Program-made: the position numbers and the translations under genes
Part shown: positions 35,255 to 37,967 of the stretch, one piece after another
Numbering within the stretch: position 1 is the stretch's first letter
How the letters are laid out: each line of letters opens with the position of its first letter
Notes under the pieces: generated by a model
The model's database searches: none
What the model saw: the letters and a program-made list of their open reading frames with translations, nothing else
Told to the model about the DNA's origin: nothing
From: Lentinus brumalis
Taxonomy: Eukaryota; Basidiomycota; Agaricomycetes; Polyporales; Polyporaceae
Length of the DNA: 64,000 nt
Assembly: GCA_001792895.1 (NCBI GenBank)
Contig: MARA01000005.1
Coordinates: 1,302,001 to 1,366,000 of the forward strand
Direction of reading: 5' to 3'

Positions 35255-37967
35255 ATGCAATCTGTTCCGCCAACGCCGCCAACGCCGCCCGTGAGCGGCC
35301 CTCCAAAACCGCGCCGGAGTGCCGCCTCCAGTCTGTACGCGACACAAGTGCGGGCGTTCTTGGAGGCGGCAGAGGCGGTCGATACGGATCCGGACGTGAT
35401 CGAGGACATTCTCGACGGACTTCCCATGGACCGTGTGCCGGAAGATGATGCGCAGGACGAAGATGGGGACGTCGATGTCGAAGGTGGTCCCGGTCCGGAG
35501 ACCTCGGCCCGGGACCACGAGATGGAAGAACGCGACTCTGCGCTGGACGAGCTGAACCTCTACCTCCAAGAAGGTACGCTTGGGAGTGTCGAATGTTGAT
35601 AATTGATGGCCGGTCTTGCTAGCATGTTTCGGGGACTGGATTGAGCATCATACTGGACGCCTGATTACCGCATGTCTAACCTTCGCTTTCCAGCGCAAAC
35701 CGCATGGACATCCCAAGAGGTCAGGCAGATGAAACACTTCCTGAAGGAGAAAGGTCAGTTGATTAGATGCTAGTAGGACTACTGACTCACCTCTTCCAGG
35801 CATGACCGCGTTCCTCAATGAGTATGTGGTTCAACGTGGAGCGCCCATCCCCAAACTTCTATACGCGTTCGGCGTGTGTCTGGTAAGGGTGTCCTCATAC
35901 GTCGCTTCGCGATAACTCCCGAGCACACTGGATGCCTGACTAAGGATCGCAGTGCAAAGAGCTTCGGATGAAACAGCCTAGGACGCTCATGTACTTCTTG
36001 CGCGTTGCGCTCTCGCAGGAGTACGTATCAGATTCCACGTGTGGCTTCGTTCTTGCGCCCACAACCACCCTCACATGGTACACACTTCGCAGATTAGAGG
36101 CCCGCGAGCGGCTGGTGGCGTACAGCACGATCGACGACGCGGTCAATCTGATAGCAGGGGCCAAACGAATCCTGATACTCACAGGCGCGGGGATAAGTGA
36201 GTCCGAAGTCACTTCGATTGCTCCCGGTGACCTTTGTGGCGTTCGAGAAGACTGACGTTGGTTTCTTTGTCGGCCTCGTGCTGGCGTGTGTGGTAACGCA
36301 TAGGCGTCTCATGTGGGATCCCGGACTTCCGGTCCAGGAACGGCCTGTACGCGTCTCTCCAGGAGAGCGGCGAATACGACTTGAACGACCCACAAGAGAT
36401 GTCAGTGCACCCATGTGGAAGCGAATCACAACTTTCTGACTCGAAGCAATTAGGTTTGACATACAGTACTTTCGGGAGAACCCCGCAGGTAAGCCTTATG
36501 GCATGTCTGCGGCAGAGGGCGTCCGGAACTCACGTTTACCTATCTAGTATTCTAGTCAGTCGTCTGTGCAACCGTGTGCCCTCTCACCAGCGCGCTAATG
36601 TAGCTTCCTGCGCAGTTCATTCGCAAGGTGTGTTCTGACGAGCAGTGCATGTCATTGTCAGTTGTCAATCAGCTGATTGTTCTTGTAGCAAGATATACCC
36701 GTCTAACTTTATACCCTCACCTTGCCATCGCTTCATTAAGCTGATTGAGGACAAGGGCAAGGTGTGTGCTACATCTCCTTCCATCTGACAGTCCTGCCGT
36801 CCTAACAATCACGTGTGTATAGCTTCTCCGCGTAAGTGATTCGACCGAGGACCATATCTGCTAAGATGACATGGAAGGTTGTTCTGCACAGAATTACACA
36901 CAGAACATCGATACACTAGAGACGCTGGCTGGTGTTCAGCGAGTGGTTCAGTGCCATGGCTCCTTCGCGACAGCTTCCTGTATCAACTGCAGGACACGCG
37001 TGGCCGGAAGTGAGATCGCGGACGACATCATGAATCAGAAGGTGCCTCTATGCAAGGTTTGCAACGTCCCTCAGGCGCCTGCGGCGACAAGCAAGTCTGG
37101 AAAGAAGAAGGGCAAGAAGAAGAAAGATGGGTGGGACAGCGACGAGTCCGACGAGCCCGACCTACCATTGTACCCGCCTGGCATCATGAAGGCAAGCGTT
37201 TTGGTGGACGTGTCCATATGCACACAGAGGAGACTGACTCGAGTGCGCCATAGCCTGATATTACGTTCTTCGGCGAGAAGCTGGATGACGCATTCGAGCA
37301 GTCCCTTATGGAGGACAGGGACAAGGTCGACCTAGTCATCATCATCGGGACTTCGCTCAAAGTTGCGCCTGTGTCAGACACCATCTGTGAGTTGCATCCG
37401 GCGTTTCGAGACAACGAGGAGGACGGCTTACCGAGTACCGCTTCAGCCCATCTGCCCCATTCTGTACCCCAAATTCTCATCAACAAGACTCCTATACGGC
37501 ACATCAACCCAGATGTTCGTCCATACGCAATATCTATCCGGTGGTTCCACAAGCTGACATGCCCCAGATCGTGCTGTTAGGAAACGCAGACGAGATCGTT
37601 CTGTATTTGTGCCGTCGCCTCGGATGGGACCTTCCGGAGGTCACGGTGTCCAGCGGTAACCAGCTCGACACGCCGAAACGGAACTTGAGGAAGCGACCCT
37701 CTGCCGAGTTCGAGAGCCAGCCGCAACGCGTAGGAAATAGGTTTGTTGGCTGTGCTACCCGCCCACTTGCATGTGCTCATGACCTTCTTTAGCCATGTCT
37801 GGCTGTTCGAGGGCGCGGAAGGGGGCAAGTGGGTCGACGAGATCGAACGACAGTCCCAGCGACAAGCCGTTGACGAGAATGGGTCGGCGACATCCACTCC
37901 ACTGTCGAGCCCTCCGGCATCTGTCTCCGGCGATAGTCGCCAAATGAAGAAACCGCGAGTGCAATGA
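35255..37967 (+). CDS. NAD-dependent protein deacetylase, class I sirtuin (Hst2/Sir2 family)
   Basis: It removes acetyl groups from histone or other lysines using NAD+. Sixteen exons fit in phase: 35255-35573, 35694-35753, 35800-35882, 35953-36020, 36093-36196, 36304-36400, 36454-36488, 36548-36554, 36616-36627, 36689-36761, 36823-36831, 36892-37191, 37254-37386, 37447-37514, 37568-37740 and 37793-37967; about 571 aa. Motifs are [47 protein letters not shown], catalytic H311 in QCHGS, Zn ligands C319, C322, C343 and C346, PDITFFGE, and [12 protein letters not shown] Pro-rich N-terminal extension and a Lys-rich insert ([13 protein letters not shown]) are present. Exons 8, 9 and 11 are only 7, 12 and 9 nt. 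The intron after 37191 begins with GC (AAG|GCAAGC). Confidence 0.93.

Follow-up and report, generated by a model that had tools for sequence, protein, structure and literature searches.

Three coding microexons within the catalytic domain of a putative SIR2-type deacetylase gene of Lentinus brumalis

Can exons of 7, 12 and 9 nt lie within the conserved catalytic domain of a sirtuin, and how would exons so small be recognized? A locus of the polypore Lentinus brumalis raises this question. It lies in a stretch of 64,000 nt (contig MARA01000005.1, positions 1,302,001 to 1,366,000), referred to here as the window; coordinates are those of the window except where another locus is named. A 16-exon gene model was assembled by hand, prior to any search for relatives. 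The gene and its central features are as follows.

35255–37967, + strand: SIR2/HST1/SIRT1-type gene for a putative deacetylase; 16 coding exons, 571 amino acids, ATG to TGA.
36454–36488, + strand: exon 7, 35 nt; its end encodes ENPA and supplies the G of a split Val codon.
36489–36547, + strand: intron 7, 59 nt; GTAAGC...TCTAG, branch-like CTCAC.
36548–36554, + strand: microexon 8, 7 nt (TATTCTA); remainder of the Val codon, Phe and bases 1–2 of Tyr.
36555–36615, + strand: intron 8, 61 nt; GTCAGT...CGCAG, branch-like CTAAT.
36616–36627, + strand: microexon 9, 12 nt (TTCATTCGCAAG); base 3 of Tyr, Ser, Phe, Ala and bases 1–2 of Ser.
36628–36688, + strand: intron 9, 61 nt; GTGTGT...TGTAG, branch-like CTGAT.
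36689–36761, + strand: exon 10, 73 nt; opens with the remainder of the Ser codon.
36762–36822, + strand: intron 10, 61 nt; GTGTGT...TATAG, branch-like CTGAC.
36823–36831, + strand: microexon 11, 9 nt (CTTCTCCGC); phase 0, Leu-Leu-Arg, predicted to open a core strand.
36832–36891, + strand: intron 11, 60 nt; GTAAGT...CACAG, weak branch-like match CTAAG.
36892–37191, + strand: exon 12, 300 nt; coding, ends at GIMK.
37192–37253, + strand: intron 12, 62 nt; GC-AG type, AAG/GCAAGC...CATAG, between GIMK and PDITFF.

The preliminary description of this locus had placed exons of 7, 12 and 9 nt at 36548–36554, 36616–36627 and 36823–36831. These positions proved exact, each exon being bounded by AG and GT, and the five introns reported between 36489 and 36891 (59, 61, 61, 61 and 60 nt) are correct and all of the GT-AG type. 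Microexons 8 and 9 jointly encode most of the motif VFYSFA, and microexon 11 encodes LLR. All three segments fit the definition of very short internal exons (≤30 nt, canonical splice sites). Skipping of the 7-nt exon would shift the reading frame; skipping of the 12-nt or the 9-nt exon would remove four or three conserved residues, respectively, in frame.

The encoded protein matches the SIR2 catalytic domain over the complete profile (PF02146, positions 1–180 of 180, E = 7.9e-63) and the SIR2 N-terminal region over positions 107–153 of 153 only (PF04574, DUF592; E = 9.5e-07, 29.2 bits against a cut-off of 24.5). When it was scored against sirtuins of solved structure only, the values were 305 bits for SIRT1 and 277 for yeast SIR2, compared with 179 for SIRT2 and 138 for Hst2. 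The far higher scores to SIRT1 and SIR2 identify the gene as SIR2/HST1/SIRT1 type; the name Hst2, under which it had been introduced, was dropped, and membership of the Hst2/SIRT2 subfamily was rejected on the same best matches. When 28 sequences hand-picked from the 120 relatives described below were aligned, no variation was seen in GAGIS, TQNID, CHGSF and two C-x2-C pairs, which we take to be the catalytic and zinc residues. The catalytic core, GKLLRNYTQNID and QCHGSFAT are common to the L. brumalis protein and to SIRT1 and yeast SIR2 (PDB 4zzh, 4iao), a likeness at the protein level from a comparison that took in proteins only, not gene structures. As judged from its sequence, the product is an intact putative NAD-dependent deacetylase of a Polyporus/Lentinus-type polypore, and would be expected to be enzymatically active. 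A DNA search of its own genome matched the locus itself and gave no second hit. Positions 37093–37161, 3′ of the second Cys pair, encode an insert that is Lys-rich and then acidic; it corresponds to residues 354–377 of the structure model discussed below, which are mostly of low confidence.

The reading of the DNA was examined by enumerating stop-free GT-AG chains with up to four introns, each of 45–130 nt, in region A (36455–36761) and region B (36690–36969). Each translation was aligned to one segment of human SIRT1 and one of yeast SIR2, both references from outside the mushrooms. With either reference, the microexon parse came top among 157 distinct translations in region A and among six in region B. 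The second-best parse in region A scored 131 against 134 with SIRT1 and 97 against 98 with SIR2. It keeps the 7-nt exon, displaces the two splice sites of intron 9 by 4 nt each (the donor becoming GTTCTG) and so adds 4 nt to the 12-nt exon; its only change to the protein is SFASK to SFARC. RC in place of SK was seen in none of the 120 relatives examined (the best 120 of 4195). As a control, the inner intronic DNA was dinucleotide-shuffled 1000 times per region and scored with the SIRT1 segment. No shuffle matched the real score in region A (0/1000) or in region B (0/1000), with narrow margins in both (best shuffles 130 vs 134 and 207 vs 210, respectively). The ranks (1/157 and 1/6) and the shortfall of the shuffles bear out the proposal that the conserved sirtuin frame requires the three tiny exons, and in every sequence test run the microexons were confirmed as real and coding.

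Public proteins offered a second view of the locus. The closest among the matches listed comes from Polyporus arcularius HHB13444 (Agaricomycetes, Polyporales). Both this protein and the hand-built model have 571 residues, and they differ by 12 substitutions with no insertion or deletion, so the microexon-encoded residues are already present in a public annotation; the P. arcularius gene model may itself be a prediction. Relatives were taken as the best 120 of 4195 proteins found, and all 120 were examined. In this set, the VFYSFA site is damaged in 25, the LLR site in five and either site in 27, leaving 93 intact at both. The expectation that automatic gene callers usually miss such exons was thus overstated, given the 93 intact relatives and a P. 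arcularius protein with the residues of all three exons. The associated prediction of a broken conserved domain holds for a minority (27/120) and fails for the other 93.

Annotation errors at splice junctions seem to account for much of the damage, and many of the damaged sequences appear to contain translated intron. A Gly immediately after NPx, as expected from read-through of the G/GT donor at intron 7, is found in 12 of the 25 sequences damaged at VFYSFA and in none of the 95 undamaged ones (best 120 of 4195). A loss of exactly SFAS is seen in P0040, P0095 and P0106, and one of exactly LLR in P0081, P0103 and P0106. P0058 and P0005 could be genuine small insertions instead of errors. Control junctions gave a mixed picture, and not all favor damage specific to the microexons. 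With a window of ±6 residues, damaged sequences numbered 1, 0, 2 and 0 of 120 at junctions 5, 6, 13 and 14, respectively; there were eight at junction 4 and 12 at junction 12, which adjoins a variable-length linker and the GC-AG intron. With a narrow window, the five microexon junctions had 11, 11, 9, 5 and 3 damaged sequences of 120, compared with five at junction 12, four at junction 15 and 20 at junction 1, in the variable N terminus.

The damaged sequences also bear on the age of the arrangement. Eight species were looked up behind them, four from the Polyporales (Sparassis, Epithele, Steccherinum and Rhodonia/Postia) and four from the Agaricales (Amanita, Galerina, Moniliophthora and Agrocybe). 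Damage signatures in both orders point to shared junctions, which suggests, from annotation errors and not from the DNA of other species, that the intron positions are common to Polyporales and Agaricales. On this reading of the errors, the microexon arrangement would be older than the split between the two orders. A scan of viral contigs with exon 12 for orthologous DNA confirmed no relative. Could the microexons instead be recent in the lineage, with intron positions limited to close relatives? The species comparison involved proteins only, and intact protein sequences cannot reveal introns. We nevertheless regard a recent origin as very unlikely, because sequences from both orders are damaged at the same junctions, with the Gly sign of read-through, and clean losses of four and three amino acids occur among them.

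Eleven of the 120 relatives (best 120 of 4195) have no NCBI source, and VFYSFA and LLR are exact in all 11. Six of these come from contigs that could not accommodate 15 introns of 46 nt each, P0046 by a slight margin, an argument that presumes an equal number of introns in the relatives. Because the contigs are so short, the six are probably spliced transcripts. These RNA-like sequences, so classed by length and none of them from L. brumalis, contain the microexon residues.

A structure predicted for the P. arcularius homologue from 28 sequences (mean pLDDT 72.7, with 83 at residues 251–260 and 95 at 281–290) places VFYSFA (256–261) within helix 254–264 and LLR (287–289) at the opening of strand 287–292. 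From these positions in a helix and a core strand, loss of VFYSFA or LLR would be expected to damage the fold. The prediction weighs on a different interpretation, which treats microexons 9 and 11 as regulated cassettes and in-frame isoforms without SFAS or LLR as catalytically weak or dominant-negative. Both exon lengths (12 and 9 nt) are divisible by three, and some public models lack exactly SFAS (P0040, P0095, P0106) or LLR (P0081, P0103, P0106). Fungal precedent exists as well: as described in PMC11121469, regulated inclusion of a microexon in Trichoderma virens Xlr2 alters a transcription factor. The Xlr2 microexon is regulated, however, and the DNA and proteins compared here gave no sign of regulation for the SIR2 gene. 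All 11 of the listed relatives that have no NCBI source contain the residues of both exons, misfolding of the short forms is probable given where the residues lie in the model, and many other damaged sequences at the same sites resemble mispredictions that translate intron. We consider such cassettes highly improbable. Still less credence is given to a wider scenario for Agaricomycetes sirtuins, in which ancient microexons would sit between ~60-nt introns held by selection, and the 12-nt and 9-nt exons would act as a fold-disrupting off-switch for SIR2.

The least probable reading of all is that one or more of the segments are non-exonic and the protein is spliced otherwise there, without microexons: some alternative parses remain open (e.g., KGK joined straight to NYTQN) and the 4-nt shift of intron 9 scores almost as high, but every alternative aligns less well to SIRT1 and to SIR2, shuffling never equalled the real score in either region, and the residues are present in the public P. 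arcularius protein and in 93 of the best 120 of 4195 relatives. We favor, with high confidence as an explanation of the whole, tiny exons that are constitutive, intron-defined and essential in an ancient SIR2/HST1/SIRT1 gene arrangement. The microexons are real and conserved; that they are included constitutively is probable, as is their dependence on intron definition.

Fungal microexons, and the annotation errors that result from them, are already published (PMC1184071, PMC12940212), and the sirtuin case is a further example. In the white-rot basidiomycete Phanerochaete chrysosporium, microexons encoding 2–10 amino acids, the shortest of 6 bp, are described as widespread in P450 genes (PMC1184071). 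These are likewise tiny coding exons amid small introns. They belong to P450 genes rather than to a sirtuin, however, and the authors of PMC1184071 suggest that they take part in alternative splicing; our own argument is for constitutive inclusion. In PMC12940212, Fusarium CYP621A is reported to have an exon of 1 nt and Phanerochaete one of 8 nt, with a warning that micro-exons are often overlooked or misassembled. The CYP621A exon resembles those studied here in being a tiny exon in a conserved motif that was found via frame and motif logic, and many gene models miss it. It differs in belonging to an ascomycete P450, in its length of 1 nt and in its confirmation by RNA reads; the sirtuin microexons are read here from DNA and proteins. 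A last exon of 6 nt is mentioned for class II peroxidases in PMC6937255. Our literature search, which was narrow on sirtuins and left many journals outside it, found no report of microexons in fungal sirtuins. This cluster of microexons, found in a core enzyme of chromatin, offers a well-conserved and readily testable case. It also has a practical consequence, since comparisons of mushroom SIR2 proteins can mislead when the catalytic region is damaged in 27 of 120 database sequences (best 120 of 4195).

Microexons are not peculiar to the SIR2-type gene. The same genome contains, on a different contig, two adjoining Hst2/SIRT2-like genes:

L010:990-1998 (G000 contig C1): first Hst2/SIRT2-like gene, with microexons of 10 and 8 nt.
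L010:3306-4288 (G000 contig C1): second Hst2/SIRT2-like gene, with a microexon of 8 nt.

The 8-nt exon occupies the same codon in both, and at least three sirtuin genes of this genome (the SIR2-type gene and the two Hst2-like genes) therefore have microexons. The first Hst2-like gene shows 98% identity to a P. arcularius protein named sirtuin-2, which includes the residues of its microexons. Among 120 listed Hst2 relatives, the residues of the 10-nt exon are kept in 106 and those of the 8-nt exon in 113, counts that concern residues and not introns. The Hst2-like intron at L010:1498-1551 falls within the Phe codon; relative to intron 7 of the SIR2 gene, it lies one codon further downstream. 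The two positions are close but different, and we claim no homology between these introns.

The three sirtuin genes together allowed the lengths of their introns to be compared. Those that flank microexons are 58–65 nt long (SD 1.9, n = 11), and the remaining introns span 46–120 nt (SD 20, n = 15). In a post hoc and small test on three related genes, a random split was equally tight in 4 of 100,000 permutations, and in 8 of 100,000 when introns of at least 100 nt were left out; for the paralogues alone, the figure was 8 of 462 splits. Under intron definition, intron length matters and exon length does not, according to a review (PMC8624252), which also cites Prp40 as required for exons too small for enhancers. 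Intron definition with near-constant intron length, the mechanism put forward in the preliminary description, is sensible in light of the contrast between the flanking introns and the others. Each ~60-nt intron would be recognized as one unit, so that the length of the exon between two of them would be of little importance. The three microexons would be constitutive, and all would be needed in the mRNA for a working enzyme. Uniform length of flanking introns, if true genome-wide, would provide a simple test of intron definition. The uniform flanking introns of ~60 nt are consistent with this mechanism, as is the branch-like CTNAY present in 10 of the 11, intron 11 of the SIR2 gene having a weak match only.
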